46,398 nt of DNA from an uncultured bacterium. Lineage in GTDB: Bacteria > Desulfobacterota > BSN033 > UBA1163. The notes beneath the pieces are model-generated. The model was not told the origin of the DNA. It ran no database searches and was given only the letters and a program-made list of their open reading frames with translations. Shown one piece after another: positions 21,052 to 46,398 of this stretch. Position 1 is the first letter of the stretch. The number at the start of each line of letters is the position of its first letter. The DNA lies in contig CALLAL010000047.1 in NCBI GenBank assembly GCA_938002255.1, positions 1 to 46,398 on the forward strand, written 5' to 3'. The position numbers and the translations under genes were made by a program.

Positions 21052-21588
21052 ATGGTTGCTCGAAAGAACGGAACGATTAAAAAAGAGCTTGAGGCCTTTA
21101 AAGAGGAAATCATTCAACAATTCCATCTGATCTCTGAGGGGTTGATCGACCAACTGAAGCTTTTGGCTGAGGGTCATGGTGGAATTATACAAAGGCTCGA
21201 CCGAGTCGACACGAGACTCGATGGAGTTGAGACGAGGCTCGACCGGGTCGACACGAGACTCGATGGAGTTGAGACGAGGCTCGACCGGGTTGAAACAAGA
21301 CTCGATGGAGTTGAGACAAGGCTCGACCGGGTTGAAACAAGACTCGATGGAGTTGAGACAAGGCTCGACCGAGTTGAAACAAGACTCGATGGAGTTGAGA
21401 CAAGGCTTAATGGAGTCGATATGAGGCTCGACCATTTGGAAAAAGAAAACGAACGTCAGCATTTAGAGACTCGGGCTCTGGTGAAGATTTCCTTCTCAGA
21501 GCTGGACAGGAGACTTTCAGACCTCGAGTCGCAAATGAAAGAAATCCAAGAGTGGAGAAAACAGGTTCAGACAAGGCTTCAAACTTAG
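21052..21588 (+). CDS. heptad-repeat coiled-coil protein, function unknown
   Basis: A 178-aa soluble protein dominated by a perfect heptad array. Residues 48-131 are twelve consecutive 7-mers of the form RLD(G/R)V(E/D)T. The N-terminal 47 residues are helical (KKELEAFKEEIIQQFHLISEGLIDQLKLLAEGHGGIIQ) and the C-terminal 45 continue as a coiled coil (SFSELDRRLSDLESQMKEIQEW). No signal peptide, TM or catalytic motif is seen. It is likely a rod-like scaffold or oligomerisation protein. An intrinsic terminator follows. No family name is assigned. Confidence 0.8.
   Translation: MVARKNGTIKKELEAFKEEIIQQFHLISEGLIDQLKLLAEGHGGIIQRLDRVDTRLDGVETRLDRVDTRLDGVETRLDRVETRLDGVETRLDRVETRLDGVETRLDRVETRLDGVETRLNGVDMRLDHLEKENERQHLETRALVKISFSELDRRLSDLESQMKEIQEWRKQVQTRLQT
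21193..21444 (+). repeat. 21/42-bp coding minisatellite
   Basis: Twelve tandem 21-bp units, mostly paired into a 42-bp unit (ACGAGACTCGATGGAGTTGA + GACGAGGCTCGACCGGGT...), encode the RLDGVET/RLDRVET heptads. Units are nearly identical at DNA level, so copy number should vary between strains. Because the unit is a multiple of 3, other frames stay open across it and produce spurious ORFs on both strands. Confidence 0.85.
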
Positions 21589-37744: not shown

Positions 37745-38620
37745 TCAACGGCCATCAAACATCCGAGAGGCATGGAAGGAGCTTCGGACAAAAGGACCGG
37801 AGGCAACAGCTTTGAAACCCAACTTCAATCCAATCGCTTGGTACTTTTCGAATTCTTCGGGAGGAATATATCTCTCGACAGGCAGCCGGTCGGAACGGGG
37901 CTGGAGATATTGGCCAATGGTTAGAAAATCGCATCCCACCCCTTTAAGATCTTCCATAACCTTTAACACTTCTTCCTTCGTTTCACCCAGTCCGAGCATA
38001 AAACCTGATTTGGTATGAATCCGGGAATCATTTCGCTTTGACTCTTTAAGGAGATGAAGCGATCTCCTATAATCTGCTTGAGGTCGAACTTGAGGATATA
38101 AACGTTCGATGGTCTCTATGTTGTGATTGAGGACATCCGGAGACGCTTTGAGCACGATTTCAAGAGAAGAAAGGTCTCCCCTGAAGTCCGGTATCAGCAC
38201 TTCGATCTTGATGCCCTGATTCTCTTGGCGAATCGCTTCGATCGTCCTCGCAAAGAACGAGGCGCCCCCGTCGGGCAAATCGTCCCGTGTCACAGAGGTG
38301 ATGACCGCATAGTGAATGCCCATCTCTCTAAGGGCTCTCGCAATCTGCTCTGGCTCATCTTCTTCCGGTGGAGAAGGAACTCCATGCTGGACTGCACAGA
38401 ATCCGCAATGTCTCGTGCAAACTTCTCCAAGGATTAAAAAGGTCGCCGTGCCTTGTGAAAAGCACTCTCCAAGGTTGGGACATCGAGCCTCTTCGCAAAC
38501 GGTGTGAAGACCGGTCTTCTCTAAAAGGGTCTTCACTTTAAGGAGTTCCTGATACAGAGGTATTCGTTTTTTTAACCAAGGAGGTTTTGTCATAGTTTTT
38601 AAATCTTGATGGACAATCAT
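37745..38620 (-). CDS. lipA: lipoyl synthase LipA
   Basis: A radical SAM enzyme inserting two sulfurs into protein-bound octanoyl chains. Cys42, Cys47 and Cys53 (CEEARCPNLGEC) hold the auxiliary cluster; Cys68, Cys72 and Cys75 (CTRHCGFC) hold the SAM cluster. The C-terminal RSSFHA ligand motif is intact. At 291 aa it is full length. Start 38620 has only a weak ribosome-binding site; MTKPPWLKKR at 38593 is the alternative. It is the last gene of the glycine-riboswitch operon and matures the H protein encoded upstream. Confidence 0.94.
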   Translation of the reverse strand: MIVHQDLKTMTKPPWLKKRIPLYQELLKVKTLLEKTGLHTVCEEARCPNLGECFSQGTATFLILGEVCTRHCGFCAVQHGVPSPPEEDEPEQIARALREMGIHYAVITSVTRDDLPDGGASFFARTIEAIRQENQGIKIEVLIPDFRGDLSSLEIVLKASPDVLNHNIETIERLYPQVRPQADYRRSLHLLKESKRNDSRIHTKSGFMLGLGETKEEVLKVMEDLKGVGCDFLTIGQYLQPRSDRLPVERYIPPEEFEKYQAIGLKLGFKAVASGPFVRSSFHASRMFDGR

Positions 38621-38663: not shown

Positions 38664-38700
38664 TCTATGCTCTCCGCACTTTGCCCTAAGCGCTTTTAAG
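38664..38700. repeat. GCGCTATGC-type short repeat R4
   Basis: CTATGCTCTCCGCACTTTGC + CCTAAGCGCTTTT straddle the lpdA stop; the repeat supplies the last codons (Lys-Ser-Ala-stop). Confidence 0.45.
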
Positions 38701-40092
38701 AGACCGTAGGGGCCTTGGAAGATGAATGGCCAAGCCATCGGCATCAAGACACGCCTCTTTGAGCGCCTCGGGAAGCGTGGGATGGGCCTGAATGAATCGT
38801 GCAAACTCCTTTAACTTATTCCCTATCATTGTTGAGGCGATGGAGATGAGGAGCGTTGCCTCAGGGCCGATGATGTGAACTCCCATGATCTCATCGTTCT
38901 TGCGATTCGCAATCACTTTGATTAAACCTTCGGTCTCCCCGGAAATCACCGCCTTCGGATTGGAGCGGAATGGAAAACGGCCAATCTTGACCTCTGCGGT
39001 TTTCTTGGCTTCGTTCTCCGTTAAACCAAGGGAAGCCACTTCAGGATGGCTGAAAATGCAGAGAGGAATGGGTGGCGATTTCCATTCCTGGTGAAGACCC
39101 ATAGCATTTTCCGCCGCAATGAGTCCATGTTCCATAGCCACATGGGCCAGCATGATTTCTCCGATGGCATCTCCAATGGCATAAATATTCGGGCATGTTG
39201 TCTCCATGCGGCGATTGACTTTGATCCCCTTCGGAGAGGTCTCAATGCCTGCTTTTGAAAAATCAAGATCTAAATGGGGCCCCCTGCCTACAGCCACTAA
39301 TAATTTTTCCGCAATGACTTCCTGGAGGCCCTGAGGGGTTTGAACGCTCAGCCTCAATCCCCCTTCACTCTCTTGAACCCCTTCGACGGAGGATTGGGTA
39401 AAAATTCTTATCCCATCCCTCTCTAAAAATCGTCGGAGATTTCGAACCAGTTCTCCTTCGAGACCGGGCAGTATATTTTCAAGGATTTCGACGACGGTGA
39501 CCTTTGACCCTAAAAGATGGAAGAGGGTAGCAATCTCGATGCCAATGTATCCTCCACCGATGATGACGATCTCTCTTGGTATTCTCTGAATCTCCAACGC
39601 ATGATCGCTGTTGATGACCCTTTTCCCGTCCAGAGGCAGATGAGCAAGGCTTTTTGGGATTGAACCTGGTGCAAGAATGATGGCATCGGCTTCAACGGTC
39701 TCGCTACAATCCTTTCCATCAGCGACAATCACCTGCTTGGGGCTGAGGAGATCGGCCCTCCCTTTTTTTATGGTGACCCGTTGGGATTCAAGCAACATCT
39801 CCACACCCTTTAGCAGCTCTTCAATCACCCTCTTCTTTCGATTCATCATGGATTCAAGAAGATGGGAAGGGTCGATAGAAACTCCTTGAAAAACAGGTGA
39901 CTTTTTGAGGGAATAAAACAGTCGGGCATCATGGAGAAGAGTCTTCGTAGGAATACATCCCCGATTGAGACAGGTTCCGCCGATCCGATCCCTCTCTATC
40001 AGGGTTACCTTGGCTCCTAATTGAGCTGCTCGTATCGCTGCCACATAACCCCCGGGACCACCACCAATGATTAGGATGTGTTTAGGATTCAT
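38686..40092 (-). CDS. lpdA: dihydrolipoyl dehydrogenase (L protein)
   Basis: Re-oxidises dihydrolipoyl-H with NAD+ in glycine cleavage. The 468-aa chain has the FAD motif ILIIGGGPGGYVAAIRAAQLGA, redox-active Cys41 and Cys46 (GGTCLNRGCIPTK), an NAD motif EIVIIGGGYIGIEIATLFHLLGSKVTVVE and the C-terminal HPTLPEA catalytic motif. AAGGAAAG precedes the ATG. Between lipB and lipA in the riboswitch operon, it is probably dedicated to the glycine system. Confidence 0.95.
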   Translation of the reverse strand: MNPKHILIIGGGPGGYVAAIRAAQLGAKVTLIERDRIGGTCLNRGCIPTKTLLHDARLFYSLKKSPVFQGVSIDPSHLLESMMNRKKRVIEELLKGVEMLLESQRVTIKKGRADLLSPKQVIVADGKDCSETVEADAIILAPGSIPKSLAHLPLDGKRVINSDHALEIQRIPREIVIIGGGYIGIEIATLFHLLGSKVTVVEILENILPGLEGELVRNLRRFLERDGIRIFTQSSVEGVQESEGGLRLSVQTPQGLQEVIAEKLLVAVGRGPHLDLDFSKAGIETSPKGIKVNRRMETTCPNIYAIGDAIGEIMLAHVAMEHGLIAAENAMGLHQEWKSPPIPLCIFSHPEVASLGLTENEAKKTAEVKIGRFPFRSNPKAVISGETEGLIKVIANRKNDEIMGVHIIGPEATLLISIASTMIGNKLKEFARFIQAHPTLPEALKEACLDADGLAIHLPRPLRSLKSA

Positions 40093-40173: not shown

Positions 40174-40845
40174 CTACATCAATTCCTCCAGGCTTTTATC
40201 TTCCCATTCTCTTTCAAAAACTTTTTTAAACTGAAAGAGGACACGTTTAATCAATTCTTTTCTTGAAACCTTTTTCCCCAGGATCTTTTCCATTGAAGTC
40301 ATCCTCTTTCCTTCGAGGCCACAGGGATGGATCAGGTCAAAATATTTCAGGTCGGTTGCGTAATTCAAAGCCAACCCGTGAAAGGAAACCCAGCGTTTGA
40401 TGGCAACCCCGATAGAAGCAATCTTATCTCCACGAACCCAAACCCCTCGGTTGGAGGGATCCCTTGCCCCTTCAACTCCGAAATCCTTTAAGACAGAGAG
40501 AATGATCTCTTCCAGCTGGTTCACATATTGAATCAGGCGATACCCATAATCCTTGAGATTGAAAATCGGATAGACGATCAGTTGTCCCGGACCGTGATAA
40601 GTCACATCCCCTCCCCGTTCCGTATGGAAAAGGGGGATCTTCATCGCTTCCAAGATCTCCGTCGAGACAAGAAGGTGGCTTTGATTCCCCCGCCTCCCAA
40701 GGGTGATCACATGGGGATGTTCGAGAATCAGCAAAAGATCTGGCACGTTTTCTTCAACCCGCTTCAACCAGAGTCGATGTTGAAGGTCCAACGCTTTAGA
40801 GTAGTCCATCATGCCTATATCTATCATGTATGCACTTTTATTCAT
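40174..40845 (-). CDS. lipB: octanoyltransferase LipB
   Basis: Transfers octanoyl groups from ACP to lipoyl domains, upstream of LipA. At 223 aa it has HPHVITLGRRG, the ERGGDVTYHGPGQLIVYPI signature and the catalytic Cys in KYFDLIHPCGLEGKRMTSM with the paired Lys-containing loop VAIKRWVSFHGLALN. The ribosome-binding site is weak; an in-frame ATG at 40827 is a possible alternative start. It lies between gcvPB and lpdA in the glycine operon. Confidence 0.94.
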   Translation of the reverse strand: MNKSAYMIDIGMMDYSKALDLQHRLWLKRVEENVPDLLLILEHPHVITLGRRGNQSHLLVSTEILEAMKIPLFHTERGGDVTYHGPGQLIVYPIFNLKDYGYRLIQYVNQLEEIILSVLKDFGVEGARDPSNRGVWVRGDKIASIGVAIKRWVSFHGLALNYATDLKYFDLIHPCGLEGKRMTSMEKILGKKVSRKELIKRVLFQFKKVFEREWEDKSLEELM

Positions 40846-40972: not shown

Positions 40973-42460
40973 TTATGTTTTTGGGGTCCATCTCAACTTT
41001 GGCTTCCGAGCGGCCAAAACCTCATCGAGTCGCCTCACCTTAACTTTGGAGGGAGCCTGGCGGAGAAGATCTGGGTTTTCCTTCGCCTCTCTGGCTATGG
41101 TGATCATGGTTTCGATAAACCGATCAAGTCCCTCTTTGCTCTCGGTCTCGGTTGGTTCCATCATCAGCGCTCCTTTGACGACCAGAGGAAAGTAGATCGT
41201 AGGGGGATGAAATCCATAATCAATCAATCGCTTGGCAATGTCCAGAGTCGAGACATGATGTTTCTCCTGATAACGATCGGTGAAAACACATTCATGCATG
41301 CAGGGTCGGTCATAAGGAAGGTAGTAGGTGTTTTTGAGTCTTTTCATGAGATAGTTTGCATTCAGCACTGCCATTTCACTCGCCCTCTTCAATCCCTCTG
41401 CCCCCATCGAAAGGATGTAGGCATAGGCTTTAAGGATGACCCCAAAATTGCCATAGAAAGCTTTGATTCGCCCGATACTGTTGGGCCGATCAAAATTGAA
41501 TCGATAGCCATTGCCCTCTTTCTCAATGACCGGGATGGGAAGAAAAGGGGCAAGTTCCTTTTTGACGGCTAAAGGACCAGCCCCCGGGCCTCCTCCGCCA
41601 TGGGGGGTCGCAAAGGTCTTATGGAGGTTGAGATGCACCATATCCACTCCGAGATCTCCCAACCTGACGATTCCCATTAAGGCATTGAGATTGGCTCCAT
41701 CGCAATAGACAAACCCTCCTTTGCGATGAACAATCTCAGCAATTTCTCCTAAATGCTCTTCAAAAAGACCAAGGGTATTGGGATTGGTCACCATGATGGC
41801 CGCCACCTCATGATCCATCACTTTTGCTACCTGATCCGGACTGATGATTCCCTGATCATTTGACTTAATCTCCACCATCTGATACGAGGCAATAGTGGAG
41901 GTTGAGCAGTTCGTTCCATGGGCCGTATCTGGAACGAGCACCTTTTTCCGCTTCTCTCCACGTAAATGAAGAGCGGCCCGGATCATCATCATTCCCGTCA
42001 GTTCTCCGTGAGCCCCTGCGGCTGGCTGAAGGGTAACTCGATCCATTCCCGTTATCTCACAGAGAAACCTTTCAAGTTCATACATCAGTTGAAGGATTCC
42101 CTGTACCAGATCTTCAGGTTGATACGGATGGGCTTGTGTAAATCCCTTCAATTTGACTACTTCTTCGTTGACTTTAGGGTTGTATTTCATCGTACAGGAA
42201 CCCAGAGGATAGAAGCCACTATCCACCCCGTAATTCCACTGGGAGAGCCGTGTAAAATGACGGACCACCTCTACTTCACTCAATTGAGGGAACCCCTCCA
42301 GCCCTTCTCTCAAAAGATGTGAAGGGATCGTTTTTGGGGGGTCTTCTTTCTCCACATCCCAGGCAGGAAGGGAATATCCTTTCCTCCCTTTTCCGCCCTG
42401 TTCAAAGAGGAGAGGCTCGTCTTGAAGGAGACCGTTATCTTTCATTTTTCCTTTCATCAT
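40973..42460 (-). CDS. gcvPB: glycine decarboxylase subunit 2 (GcvPB)
   Basis: The PLP-carrying subunit of the two-part P protein (495 aa). It decarboxylates glycine and passes the aminomethyl group to lipoyl-H. The PLP lysine is in NLHKTFATPHGGGGPGAGP. Supporting motifs are YPLGSCTMKYNPKVNEE, AGAHGELTGMMMIRAALH and VPDTAHGTNCSTSTIA. It needs GcvPA, encoded just upstream. In-frame ATGs at the start (MMKGKMKDN) leave the exact N-terminus open. Confidence 0.96.
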   Translation of the reverse strand: MMKGKMKDNGLLQDEPLLFEQGGKGRKGYSLPAWDVEKEDPPKTIPSHLLREGLEGFPQLSEVEVVRHFTRLSQWNYGVDSGFYPLGSCTMKYNPKVNEEVVKLKGFTQAHPYQPEDLVQGILQLMYELERFLCEITGMDRVTLQPAAGAHGELTGMMMIRAALHLRGEKRKKVLVPDTAHGTNCSTSTIASYQMVEIKSNDQGIISPDQVAKVMDHEVAAIMVTNPNTLGLFEEHLGEIAEIVHRKGGFVYCDGANLNALMGIVRLGDLGVDMVHLNLHKTFATPHGGGGPGAGPLAVKKELAPFLPIPVIEKEGNGYRFNFDRPNSIGRIKAFYGNFGVILKAYAYILSMGAEGLKRASEMAVLNANYLMKRLKNTYYLPYDRPCMHECVFTDRYQEKHHVSTLDIAKRLIDYGFHPPTIYFPLVVKGALMMEPTETESKEGLDRFIETMITIAREAKENPDLLRQAPSKVKVRRLDEVLAARKPKLRWTPKT

Positions 42461-42487: not shown

Positions 42488-42562
42488 GGGCATGGAGCAT
42501 AGCATAGCGAATTTAAGGTTTTAATCCTATGCGCTTGGCGTTATGCTCTTTGCTAAAATCTC
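42488..42562. repeat. GCGCTATGC-type short repeat R5
   Basis: GGAGCATAGCATAGCG and CCTATGCGCTTGGCG + TTATGCTCTTTGC lie in the gcvPA-gcvPB gap and over the gcvPA 3' end, where the repeat encodes the last residues AKSITPSA and the stop. Confidence 0.45.
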
Positions 42563-43888
42563 GGCCCAACGGTCAATCTCCTCCCGGGTGTTCATCTCGG
42601 TAACGGTTACAAGAAGATGTTGATTCAGCTCAGGATAAAATCGAGCTAACTCTATTCCACCTAAAATCCCCTCTTGCCTCCAGCTCTCTAAAATCCTTTG
42701 AGGCTCTGTATCCACCTTCAAAACAAACTCATTAAAGGTGGGAGCAGAAAAAGCTAATCGAACCCCCTTTAACTCTGAAACCCTCTTCTTGGCATATTCC
42801 GCTTTGCTCAGGTTCATCCAGGCCAATTCTTTCAACCCTTCTTGACCAAGACAGGAGAGAAAAATGGTCGCCATCAGGGCACAAAGTCCTTCGTTGGTGC
42901 AGATATTGGAAGTGGCTTTCTCCCTTCGAATATGCTGTTCACGGGTTGCAAGCGTTAGAACAAATCCCCTCTTCCCCTCCAGATCAACCGTTTCACCCAC
43001 CAGTCTACCCGGCATACTCCGAACAAACTTCTCCCTGGTTGTAAAGATGCCCAGATAAGGACCTCCGAAAGAGAGAGGGATTCCGAGGCTCTGACCTTCT
43101 CCAGCAACTATATCAGCTCCATATTCACCTGGGGGTTTTAAAATCCCGTAGGCAATTGCTTCACTGAAGCAGACGATCAGAAGCCCCCCTGCGCGATGCA
43201 CGAGATCTCCAACCCTTGAAAGGTCCTCTACCACTCCAAAGAAGTTTGGACTTTGAAGGATAGTAGCACTGACCTCCTGATGAAGACACTGTGCCAGGTG
43301 ATGCTCGTCCGTTCTCCCGTCCTCTCTCAGATAGGGAATCCAAACAATCTCCTGCTCCTCGGGATTTATATAGGTTTCGATCACCTTACGATATTCAGGA
43401 TGGACCGACTCTGAGATCAGAACTCTCTTCTTTCCCGTAAGGCGATGAGCCATCAACACCGCTTCAGCCAGGCTTGAAGCCCCATCATACATCGAGGCAT
43501 TGGAGACCTCCATCCCCGTCAACTGGCACATCAGGGTCTGGTATTCAAAGATGGCTTGAAGCGTTCCCTGACTGATCTCGGGCTGATAGGGTGTGTAAGC
43601 GGTGTAAAATTCGGAGCGGGAAGTTAGATGGGAAACCACAGCAGGGATAAAATGAAAGTAAGCCCCGCCTCCGAGAAAAGAGGTATAGGTGGAGGGTTGA
43701 AGTCTTTGGAGATGACGGAGGAGATCGGTTTCTGAAAGAGGGGAGGGGAGGTTGAATCGTCCGGAGAGCCTATATCGCTGTGGAATGACTTCGAAGAGAT
43801 CCTCGACACGCCTGAGGCCAATCGCCTCAAGCATCTCTATGACCTCTTTCTCATTATGAGGAAGATAGCGAAGGTAGGAGTCTTCCAT
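42527..43888 (-). CDS. gcvPA: glycine decarboxylase subunit 1 (GcvPA)
   Basis: The partner subunit of GcvPB (453 aa). It begins RYLPHNEKEVIEMLEAIGLRRVEDLFEVIP and carries the family stretch FLGGGAYFHFIPAVVSHLTSRSEFYTAYTPYQPEISQGTLQAIFEYQTLMCQLTGMEVSNASMYDGASSLAEA. It lacks a PLP lysine, as expected for this subunit. The start codon overlaps the gcvH stop (TGATG), so translation is coupled. Confidence 0.96.
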   Translation of the reverse strand: MEDSYLRYLPHNEKEVIEMLEAIGLRRVEDLFEVIPQRYRLSGRFNLPSPLSETDLLRHLQRLQPSTYTSFLGGGAYFHFIPAVVSHLTSRSEFYTAYTPYQPEISQGTLQAIFEYQTLMCQLTGMEVSNASMYDGASSLAEAVLMAHRLTGKKRVLISESVHPEYRKVIETYINPEEQEIVWIPYLREDGRTDEHHLAQCLHQEVSATILQSPNFFGVVEDLSRVGDLVHRAGGLLIVCFSEAIAYGILKPPGEYGADIVAGEGQSLGIPLSFGGPYLGIFTTREKFVRSMPGRLVGETVDLEGKRGFVLTLATREQHIRREKATSNICTNEGLCALMATIFLSCLGQEGLKELAWMNLSKAEYAKKRVSELKGVRLAFSAPTFNEFVLKVDTEPQRILESWRQEGILGGIELARFYPELNQHLLVTVTEMNTREEIDRWAEILAKSITPSA

Positions 43889-44274
43889 CAGGATTCCTCA
43901 GAAATCAATCCCTGATAGGCGGTGGCTGAAAGAAGTTTCTTTAATTCCTCTTGGTCCTTCAATTCCATACGAAGGAACCAACCTTTTCCATAGGGTTCTG
44001 TATTGACCCATTCCGGATGGTCTCTTAGTTCGAGATTCTTCTCAATGACCTTTCCAGTCACCGGTGAGAAAATGTCCGCGGCGGTCTTGACCGACTCCAC
44101 AACACCCATAGTTTCTCCCTTTTTAAATTCGGAGCCTATCTCCGGAAGATCAACATAGACGATATCCTTCAACTGGCTTTGGGCAAAATCGGTGATCCCA
44201 ATCGTCACTCCATTTCCTTCAACCCTTACCCATTCATGACTTTCGGAATAAAGTAAATTTTCCGGAAATTGCAT
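43888..44274 (-). CDS. gcvH: glycine cleavage system H protein
   Basis: The 128-aa lipoyl carrier that shuttles the aminomethyl group among P, T and L. The lipoylated Lys63 lies in GVVESVKTAADIFSPVTGKV, and EWVNTEPYGKGWFLRMEL is the usual C-terminal signature. AAGGAGG precedes the ATG; the longer ORF start lies in a G/C-rich hairpin and is rejected. A hairpin lies just upstream of the ribosome-binding site. Confidence 0.96.
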   Translation of the reverse strand: MQFPENLLYSESHEWVRVEGNGVTIGITDFAQSQLKDIVYVDLPEIGSEFKKGETMGVVESVKTAADIFSPVTGKVIEKNLELRDHPEWVNTEPYGKGWFLRMELKDQEELKKLLSATAYQGLISEES

Positions 44275-44343: not shown

Positions 44344-44832
44344 TTATTTTTTCAACTCCTCCAATGGGACATTAATAAAGGTCTCGATGCAGGAGATGTG
44401 CTTCAACTCTCCATCGATCATGATCATGTGCTTGGAGGTTTTAGGTTGCATTCTCTTTCCGCTCAACGCTGTTTCCAGAATCATCTCTTTTGTGACCACT
44501 TCGCCTTCCCGCCAGGGAACCACACAGATTTCAGGAGACTGATAGTCCACCATGATGACAGGGATCTTTCGGCAACCTATTCTTCTCAACGCATGAAGCC
44601 GATGATGCCCATCCAGAATGATATAGGTGCTCCGATCTACGGCGATGGGCATTTTCAGAATCCCATCAGAGAGGATTTCGTTCTTCAGCGCTTCCAGGTG
44701 GTCTGGCCTGATCTCTTCATGTTCTTTGAGTTCGGAGATACTGAGAAAGACAATATCATCTCTTTCCGTGAAACACAACTTCTGTTTACCAACTCTTTTC
44801 ACACCACGCTCAGGAGGTTTTCGCTTTCCCAT
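44344..44832 (-). CDS. SerK-like ParB-fold protein, candidate free serine kinase
   Basis: A 162-aa ParB/Srx-fold protein that is the first gene after the glycine riboswitch. It lacks the GERR box of partition ParB and instead has DGHHR at residues 74-78, HEE at 38-40 and PKTSKH at 130-135. These match, from memory, the archaeal ADP-dependent serine kinase SerK and staphylococcal SbnI, where a Glu in a PHE motif is catalytic and DGHHR binds the nucleotide. At ~160 aa it is shorter than SerK (~240 aa). The inferred reaction is L-serine to O-phosphoserine; a regulatory role remains possible. GGGGAAAGG precedes the ATG. Confidence 0.7.
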   Translation of the reverse strand: MGKRKPPERGVKRVGKQKLCFTERDDIVFLSISELKEHEEIRPDHLEALKNEILSDGILKMPIAVDRSTYIILDGHHRLHALRRIGCRKIPVIMVDYQSPEICVVPWREGEVVTKEMILETALSGKRMQPKTSKHMIMIDGELKHISCIETFINVPLEELKK

Positions 44833-44860
44833 ACCTTTCCCCTCTCCTCCGCCCTAAAGC

Positions 44861-44900
44861 AAAAAGAGGAAGGACGATCAAATTAGGATCGTCTCTTCCT
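44861..44900 (-). terminator. intrinsic terminator of the glycine riboswitch
   Basis: Minus strand AGGAAGAGACGATC (44900-44887), loop CTAATTT, GATCGTCCTTCCT (44879-44867), then CTTTTT. The 5' arm shares its first base with the 3' strand of the second aptamer's P1 stem, so ligand-dependent choice between P1 and terminator is plausible. Confidence 0.75.
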
Positions 44901-45107
44901 CCTGTCATTTGACCTGAGAGATTATCCTTTGCCAAGCTCAGGATTTATCCCCTTCGGTGTCCAAACCCCGTTCCCACACAATGTAGGAACAAAGAACGGA
45001 ACTTTCCAGGATGTGATTAAGCTACAGTCCTTTTGCCTGAGAGTTTCATCTCGCACCCGGCGGAATTTGCCCCTTCGGCGCCCCTTTAATACGGGGTCTC
45101 TCCTGTA
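44899..45107 (-). ncRNA. tandem glycine riboswitch
   Basis: Two aptamers in series on the minus strand. Aptamer 1 (45107-45022): P1 TACAG/CTGTA, GGAGAGAC entry, then GCGCCGAAGGGGCAAA and AACTCTCAGGCAAAAGGAC. Aptamer 2 (45013-44899): P1 TCCTG/CAGGA, then GGACACCGAAGGGGATAAATCC and AATCTCTCAGGTCAAATGAC. The CGAAGGGG and CTCTCAGG(C/T) motifs are glycine-aptamer hallmarks. Aptamer 2 enters with GGAAAG rather than GGAGAG. It precedes the SerK-like gene and the whole gcv/lip operon. Confidence 0.92.
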
Positions 45108-45117
45108 ACTTAAAAAA

Positions 45118-45146
45118 ATTTTGTTCTAAACAAAGAAAGATGTCAA
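45118..45146 (-). promoter_or_regulatory. promoter of the riboswitch operon
   Basis: Minus strand TTGACA (45146-45141), 17-bp spacer, CAAAAT (45123-45118), 11 bp before aptamer 1. Confidence 0.65.
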
Positions 45147-45985: not shown

Positions 45986-46041
45986 GTTATCCTAAAGGTC
46001 TGCTATTTAGACACCGGGGAGGTCTGGAAGGGGGCGTTTAA

Positions 46042-46398
46042 GTCTCAATCCCTTATTCATCAGGTCATTCTCTCACACAAATGACGAATTTAGTGAAAAT
46101 TCTACAAGGGGAGGTCTCAATCCCTTATTCATCAGGTCATTCTCTCACACAGTTTTCGCAAGTATTCCTCGTTTACCCTTGAATTCACCTTTGGTCTCAA
46201 TCCCTTATTCATCAGGTCATTCTCTCACACCGTAAACTTAGCATTAGAACGACATAACTCACGAAATACATGTCTCAATCCCTTATTCATCAGGTCATTC
46301 TCTCACACTTCTTGTTCGTCAAGAAGGATCCTTGCACTTTTCTGATCGGTCTCAATCCCTTATTCATCAGGTCATTCTCTCACACACTGCGAGCTAAA
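46042..46398 (-). CRISPR. CRISPR array, trailer end, five repeats in window
   Basis: Five identical 37-bp repeats at 46042-46078, 46114-46150, 46194-46230, 46272-46308 and 46349-46385, starting GTCTCAATCCCTTATTC and ending GTCATTCTCTCACAC. Spacers are 35, 43, 41 and 40 bp, and a fifth continues past the window edge. Read on the minus strand the repeat ends ATTGAGAC, like the crRNA 5' handle of many type I-B/III arrays. This suggests leftward transcription from a leader beyond the right edge. No cas gene is in the window. Confidence 0.95.

Follow-up and report, generated by a model that had tools for sequence, protein, structure and literature searches.

The first gene of a glycine riboswitch-led operon, located near one end of a 46,398-nt stretch of uncultured bacterial DNA (hereafter the window), encodes a short ParB-fold protein that is probably a compact, glycine-induced kinase of the SerK/SbnI type, predicted to phosphorylate free serine into a route leading to 3-phosphoglycerate. 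We place the probability of this reading at roughly two in three. The operon lies on the minus strand and comprises, in order, a tandem glycine riboswitch, a terminator, the SerK-like gene, gcvH, gcvPA, gcvPB, lipB, lpd and lipA (Table 1).

Table 1. Coordinates of the operon, of the GcvT-SHMT fusion gene in the window and of full-length SerK-like loci in other genomes (prefixed L)
Feature	Coordinates	Strand	Basis or remark
Sigma-70-like promoter candidate, TTGACA-17-CAAAAT	45118..45146	-	Consensus scan, 10/12 positions; directly 5' of riboswitch
Glycine riboswitch aptamer 1	45015..45115	-	Rfam RF00504, 74.9 bits, E 5.5e-14
Glycine riboswitch aptamer 2	44892..45019	-	RF00504, 48.3 bits
Expression platform: hairpin plus U run of an intrinsic terminator	44860..44903	-	RNA fold -23.2 kcal/mol, z -5.3
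Predicted free-serine kinase, 162 aa; short, SerK-like, with ParB fold	44344..44832	-	Sequence searches, orthologues, model
gcvH, glycine cleavage H protein	43888..44274	-	Pfam GCV_H E 1.3e-43; NCBIfam GcvH
gcvPA, glycine dehydrogenase subunit 1	42527..43888	-	Sequence recognition and conserved order
gcvPB, glycine dehydrogenase subunit 2	40973..42460	-	Sequence recognition and conserved order
lipB, octanoyltransferase	40174..40845	-	Sequence recognition and conserved order
lpd, dihydrolipoyl dehydrogenase	38686..40092	-	Sequence recognition and conserved order
lipA, lipoyl synthase; probable operon end	37745..38620	-	Sequence recognition
GcvT-serine hydroxymethyltransferase (SHMT) fusion, 904 aa	22499..25213	-	NCBIfam
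Full-length SerK relatives (examples)	L042 3803-4717; L039 5149-6030		
Gene group GcvT-SHMT / full-length SerK-like / ACT-ACT-HAD SerB-like	L042 982-5970; L039 2479-6549; L140-L167		Not all three genes everywhere

A tandem glycine riboswitch with a terminator-type expression platform

An earlier sequence-only reading of this DNA had described a tandem riboswitch ahead of the SerK-like gene. Two aptamers were indeed recovered above the Rfam RF00504 cut-off of 32 bits, and together they span 45115-44892, extending slightly past the interval 44344-45107 to which that reading referred. The promoter candidate upstream of them is a weak match, given that about 0.9 chance sites are expected in the region scanned. 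The terminator hairpin follows aptamer 2, precedes the first ATG and is retained in 10 orthologous loci, across which four of its base pairs are altered on both sides. When the fold omits the 3' arm of the terminator, the closing helix P1 of aptamer 2 forms by pairing of UCCUG (45011-45007) with CAGGA (44904-44900); once the 3' arm is included, CAGGA is captured by the terminator, whose 5' arm shares sequence with the 3' strand of P1. Because CAGGA is shared by both helices, P1 and the terminator are predicted to be mutually exclusive, and from the usual logic of such exclusion we infer a glycine ON switch, in which glycine on the tandem riboswitch would stabilise aptamer 2 P1, prevent the terminator from forming and turn the operon on.

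In its tandem aptamers ahead of glycine-cleavage genes and its terminator-type expression platform, the locus resembles known RF00504 gcv operons, but its first gene is SerK-like rather than gcvT, gcvH or a transporter gene. No description of a glycine riboswitch-SerK link was found in the open-access literature searched, in line with what the sequence-only reading had supposed, and neither riboswitches nor glycine cleavage come up in the main text of a 2025 survey of the ParB fold, which names SerK and SbnI as enzymes (PMC12704722).

The encoded protein resembles a shortened SerK

The open reading frame proved genuine, with gcvH directly downstream, and the three motifs previously reported for its product are present (HEE at residues 38-40, DGHHR at 74-78 and PKTSKH at 130-135). 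A sequence search against the PDB ranked SerK first (5x0b, E 1.2e-14), followed by SbnI (1.3e-07) and then by ParB proteins (0.0055 and worse), and a profile built from the 11 orthologues returned the identical ranking with SerK as the best match. SerK (TK0378 of Thermococcus kodakarensis, PDB 5X0B, 5X0E and 5X0J; 1VK1 in P. furiosus) is an ADP-dependent free-serine kinase with which the protein shares the catalytic glutamate, DGHHR and the PKT(T/S)(R/K)H segment. The glutamate, whose absence had been named beforehand as a ground for rejecting the assignment, is present: Glu39 aligns with SerK Glu30, a column fixed by the SerK mutant chains 5x0j (E30Q) and 5x0e (E30A). Likewise, DGHHR aligns with VDGHHR and PKTSKH with PKTTRH of SerK. 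The glutamate and both motifs are retained in 11/11 orthologues, and in a 13-sequence alignment of short, full-length bacterial and archaeal relatives the residues E39, D74, G75, H77, R78, K131 and H135 are invariant. Glu39 would act as the base in the phosphorylation of free serine, and DGHHR and PKTSKH would hold phosphate groups. The phosphate donor would be ADP or ATP; ParB folds are known to bind CTP, ATP or GTP, and their choice of nucleotide is not predictable from sequence (PMC12704722).

The protein is nevertheless about 80 residues shorter than SerK (162 versus 242 aa), a difference overlooked in the sequence-only reading. An internal segment is absent: query residue 108 aligns with SerK 103 and query residue 112 with SerK 202, so that some 98 SerK residues are replaced by three, and SerK residues ~104-201 are missing in all 11 orthologues. 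The NCBIfam SerK equivalog cut-off (NF053625) is not reached by the protein (70.1 versus 380 bits) or by the other orthologues (68-78 bits), nor does the protein reach the cut-offs for NCBIfam SbnI (NF033589; 38.1 versus 350 bits), Pfam ParB_N (25.4 versus 26.3 bits) or TIGR00180 ParB (26.9 versus 58.45 bits). The designation as a SerK-like serine kinase is thus upheld for the likeness and fails for a full SerK: as far as sequence can show, the protein is SerK-like, yet it is not SerK proper, and the lost internal segment, which is the chief ground for caution, points to a compact variant. The column of SerK Trp102, a residue that we take to have a role in serine recognition and to which we give no weight here, corresponds to position 107 here and holds Trp in 7/11 orthologues and His in the other four, that of L004 among them; since the column may be either, substrate recognition may vary among orthologues.

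Structure prediction and alignment with SerK and SbnI, proposed earlier as a check, matched the protein to the core folds of both families at Z 13-18. The AlphaFold model (pLDDT 84.5) superposes over residues 16-161 on SerK residues 8-242, covering both sides of the gap. SerK entries scored mostly Z 17-18, with 5x0g and 5x0b at about 14.5, and the four best SerK entries gave an rmsd of 2.0-3.7 over 130-136 residues. SbnI entries, which represent the 254-aa free-serine kinase for staphyloferrin B in Staphylococcus (PDB 5UJD, 5UJE and 6NR6), scored Z 13-16, and the next best fold Z 8.3. SbnI shares the catalytic-region motif and the C-terminal segment with the protein, but it has the internal segment and sits in a siderophore cluster.

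The model also bears on the alternative offered by the sequence-only reading, namely that the protein regulates the operon as a DNA-binding, ParB-like factor. Its near-threshold match to Pfam ParB_N is the point in favour of such a role, which we regard as improbable on the combined evidence of fold, length and context. The ordered chain (residues 25-162) is entirely covered by the SerK/SbnI core, and the SerK C-terminal segment closes the model, with no further helical domain after it and with neither a helix-turn-helix nor a dimerisation segment. ParB proteins match mainly its N-terminal part, and the operon is already under riboswitch control. A ParB regulator was therefore rejected on the grounds of fold and length. 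Sulfiredoxin, ParB and Noc all scored Z 7-8 against the model; sulfiredoxin and the ParB CTPases have the ParB/Srx core fold and one phosphate-binding motif in common with it, but lack the HEE motif and the PKTSKH segment. Sulfiredoxin was also rejected, on this low score and because the DGHHR motif of the protein is without the catalytic Cys.

The N-terminal residues 2-73 of the O-phosphoserine sulfhydrylase of Aeropyrum pernix (PDB 1wkv, 3vsc and 6l0p) were also seen to align with model residues 28-162 (70-71 residues aligned, Z 6.4-6.5, 24% identity). The sulfhydrylase, which uses phosphoserine, may thus carry a domain related to SerK, although a Z below 8 may mean a mere common arrangement.

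Conservation and riboswitch linkage within the family

The short form is found in 11 genomes, including that of the window, all belonging to one family of uncultured deltaproteobacterial genomes. Orthologues in the ten other genomes are 65-81% identical to the window's protein, and the one at L002 is shorter, at 140 aa. Among 395 genomes of the phylum, no other had an equally close relative. Purifying selection acts on the gene: pN/pS is 0.05-0.19, and in many pairs the synonymous sites are close to saturated. The missing SerK segment could in principle mark the gene as a degenerate, functionless remnant. This we consider highly implausible: the gene is intact in 11 genomes with all motifs kept, and the selection test contradicts it.

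The riboswitch-SerK linkage noted in the window recurs across the assessable members of the family, as the proposed survey within the phylum revealed: in every assessable carrier the riboswitch lies directly upstream of the gene and gcvH directly downstream, a count that leaves out contigs broken nearby (one begins inside the gene, in G015/L008, and those of G001 and G002, L003 and L006, end shortly after it). Genome G005 has the riboswitch and not the gene, its contig ending ~40 bases past the riboswitch, and neither element was found in G011, G012, G013 and G016. Two of these, G011 and G013, carry gcvPA all the same, and in the G011 operon a gene for an AMP-binding ligase occupies the position of riboswitch and gene, from which it appears that the two come and go as a unit.

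This constant place beside gcvH, together with the shortened protein and the report that ParB folds can bind without catalysis (PMC12704722), would also suit a SerK relative that is catalytically dead or senses nucleotides and that acts allosterically on the glycine cleavage or lipoylation proteins. We think a pseudokinase of this kind unlikely, given that a dead enzyme would have no need of the catalytic glutamate and phosphate-site motifs that all orthologues keep.

Other genes can occupy the slot behind a glycine riboswitch. In G006 the riboswitch is followed by an aminotransferase gene and a glyoxylate/hydroxypyruvate reductase-like gene, the SerK-like gene being absent, and in G018 by an aminotransferase gene that heads a gcv gene group; in G010, the riboswitch-SerK pair is immediately preceded by a gene for a relative of the G006 reductase (74% identity). 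The slot can be read as housing different solutions for removing serine made from glycine, either the non-phosphorylated route from serine through hydroxypyruvate to glycerate or the SerK route. Conversion of glycine to glyoxylate would account equally well for G006. Arrangements of this kind were seen at L072 (4055-6726), where the riboswitch leads an aminotransferase gene and a hydroxypyruvate/glyoxylate reductase-like gene, and at L073 (284-4348), where it leads an aminotransferase gene accompanied by transketolase/PDH-E1-like, lipB and gcv genes; L125 shows the same gene order, on a contig that begins inside the aminotransferase gene.

Full-length relatives in other families of the phylum

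A family profile search showed that other families of the phylum encode full-length SerK relatives, which are 293-319 aa long and share about 30% identity with the short form. In the order to which they belong, 27 of 85 genomes have one, at 28 loci in all. A GcvT-SHMT fusion gene lies directly upstream in 16 of the 28 loci, a SerB-like gene encoding two ACT domains and a HAD phosphatase lies alongside in 24, and every one of the 28 has the fusion, the SerB-like gene or both. The predicted full-length structure matches SerK and SbnI at Z 17-20 across the whole SerK length. These proteins share with the short form the SerK motifs and a coupling to glycine/serine genes; unlike it, they keep the internal segment and have GcvT-SHMT and SerB-like genes as neighbours, and no glycine riboswitch was found in the four full-length loci scanned. 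The genome of the window carries a GcvT-SHMT fusion of similar kind to that of the full-length loci. The SerB neighbour is puzzling, in that it would reverse the kinase reaction; its ACT domains may serve to switch a kinase/phosphatase pair.

With two divergent branches both linked to glycine/serine interconversion, the case for serine as the predicted substrate is stronger than either branch would make alone. The bacterial example of such a kinase, SbnI, belongs to a siderophore cluster, whereas the SerK-type proteins described here are associated with glycine/serine one-carbon genes in two separate bacterial lineages, in one of them under a glycine riboswitch. The broader proposal, to which we give somewhat better than even odds, is that a minimal bacterial serine kinase (~135-160 residues, with no internal segment) is induced through a glycine riboswitch and opens a route from glycine through serine and O-phosphoserine to 3-phosphoglycerate, and that the second lineage uses its full-length GcvT-SHMT/SerK/SerB cluster likewise.

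A further short and distant SerK-like protein, of 137 aa with a PYKTAKH motif and no Pfam match, is encoded in G091 (L040 6346-6759, minus strand), where it sits between nucleotidyltransferase genes in a cluster of surface-glycan type with NeuB-like and CMP-sugar synthetase-like genes. Among the weaker matches in the phylum, one of those inspected, in G320, is an ordinary ParA/ParB locus, so that matches near E 1e-8 are not all SerK-like.

The location of the G091 protein outside glycine metabolism, the missing segment and the Trp-to-His change in the SerK Trp102 column, which could shift specificity, bear on whether the substrate is serine at all. A minority possibility, though the foremost of the alternatives, is that the protein is a kinase with the SerK fold whose substrate is a different small hydroxy compound, such as glycerate, homoserine or threonine, or that it does phosphorylate serine but for another purpose, such as supplying cysteine or phospholipid precursors. 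The glycine-cleavage linkage of the short form and the SHMT/SerB linkage of its full-length relatives indicate serine, CysE is present in the genome, and SerK itself does not accept threonine or homoserine (PMC5120207).

A predicted route from glycine to 3-phosphoglycerate

In the genome of the window, SerA scores 685 bits, two proteins exceed the SerB cut-off, and CysE is present; among the other genomes, G001 and G015 gave no match to cysE. The sequence-only reading had allowed that O-phosphoserine might feed cysteine synthesis, a branch now disfavoured, since with CysE present O-phosphoserine is not needed for cysteine. A search for serine dehydratase, covering the Fe-S type, found none in the 17 genomes tested, as against 9 positives among 14 control genomes. 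With cysE, serA and serB present and no Fe-S serine dehydratase found, 3-phosphoglycerate is a more fitting destination for serine than cysteine. The dehydratase absence fits the route but is weak as a correlate, because it does not track the SerK-like gene: G011 and G013, members of the family, are without both.

We propose that the route would run as follows. The glycine cleavage system would convert one glycine to methylene-THF, which the GcvT-SHMT fusion would combine with a second glycine to yield serine. In the 904-aa fusion of the window, NCBIfam models match GcvT over residues 5-417 (E 3.7e-90) and a divergent SHMT over residues 452-880 (E 4.7e-74); the protein is predicted to be the source of both the T-protein and the glycine-to-serine step, and would link methylene-THF formation with serine synthesis within one chain. 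Once free serine had been phosphorylated by the SerK-like protein, O-phosphoserine would run backwards via phosphoserine aminotransferase and SerA to 3-phosphoglycerate, and glycine carbon would reach gluconeogenesis without a serine dehydratase. This suggests that surplus glycine, by way of serine, feeds sugar metabolism along a path not so far described from bacteria.

Makino et al. proposed that in Thermococcus SerK, phosphoserine aminotransferase and SerA carry serine, and via GlyA also glycine, to 3-phosphoglycerate (PMC5120207), and the route predicted here follows the same glycine-serine-phosphoserine-3-phosphoglycerate sequence. SerK was reported only from a few hyperthermophilic archaea, with clear-cut bacterial homologues absent, and serK of T. 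kodakarensis stands outside any operon (PMC5120207); the gene described here is bacterial and lies in a glycine-riboswitch gcv operon. Should the predicted activity hold true, the enzymes of bacterial serine biosynthesis can run in an assimilatory direction, and anaerobes that use amino acids gain a gluconeogenic exit for glycine. The protein also offers a testable case of whether a ParB fold of ~140 residues is sufficient for a metabolite kinase, and suggests a function for genes otherwise annotated as ParB-like.

Other features of the window

Two further features were observed in the window. At the contig end adjoining the operon (46041-46388) lies a CRISPR-type direct repeat, GTCTCAATCCCTTATTCATCAGGTCATTCTCTCACAC, of ~37 nt, in five copies with a spacing of 72-80. 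Between positions 21052 and 21588 there is a repetitive coding region, VETRLDRVDTRLDG..., which probably encodes a coiled-coil repeat protein and in which an overlapping minus-strand frame is open too.
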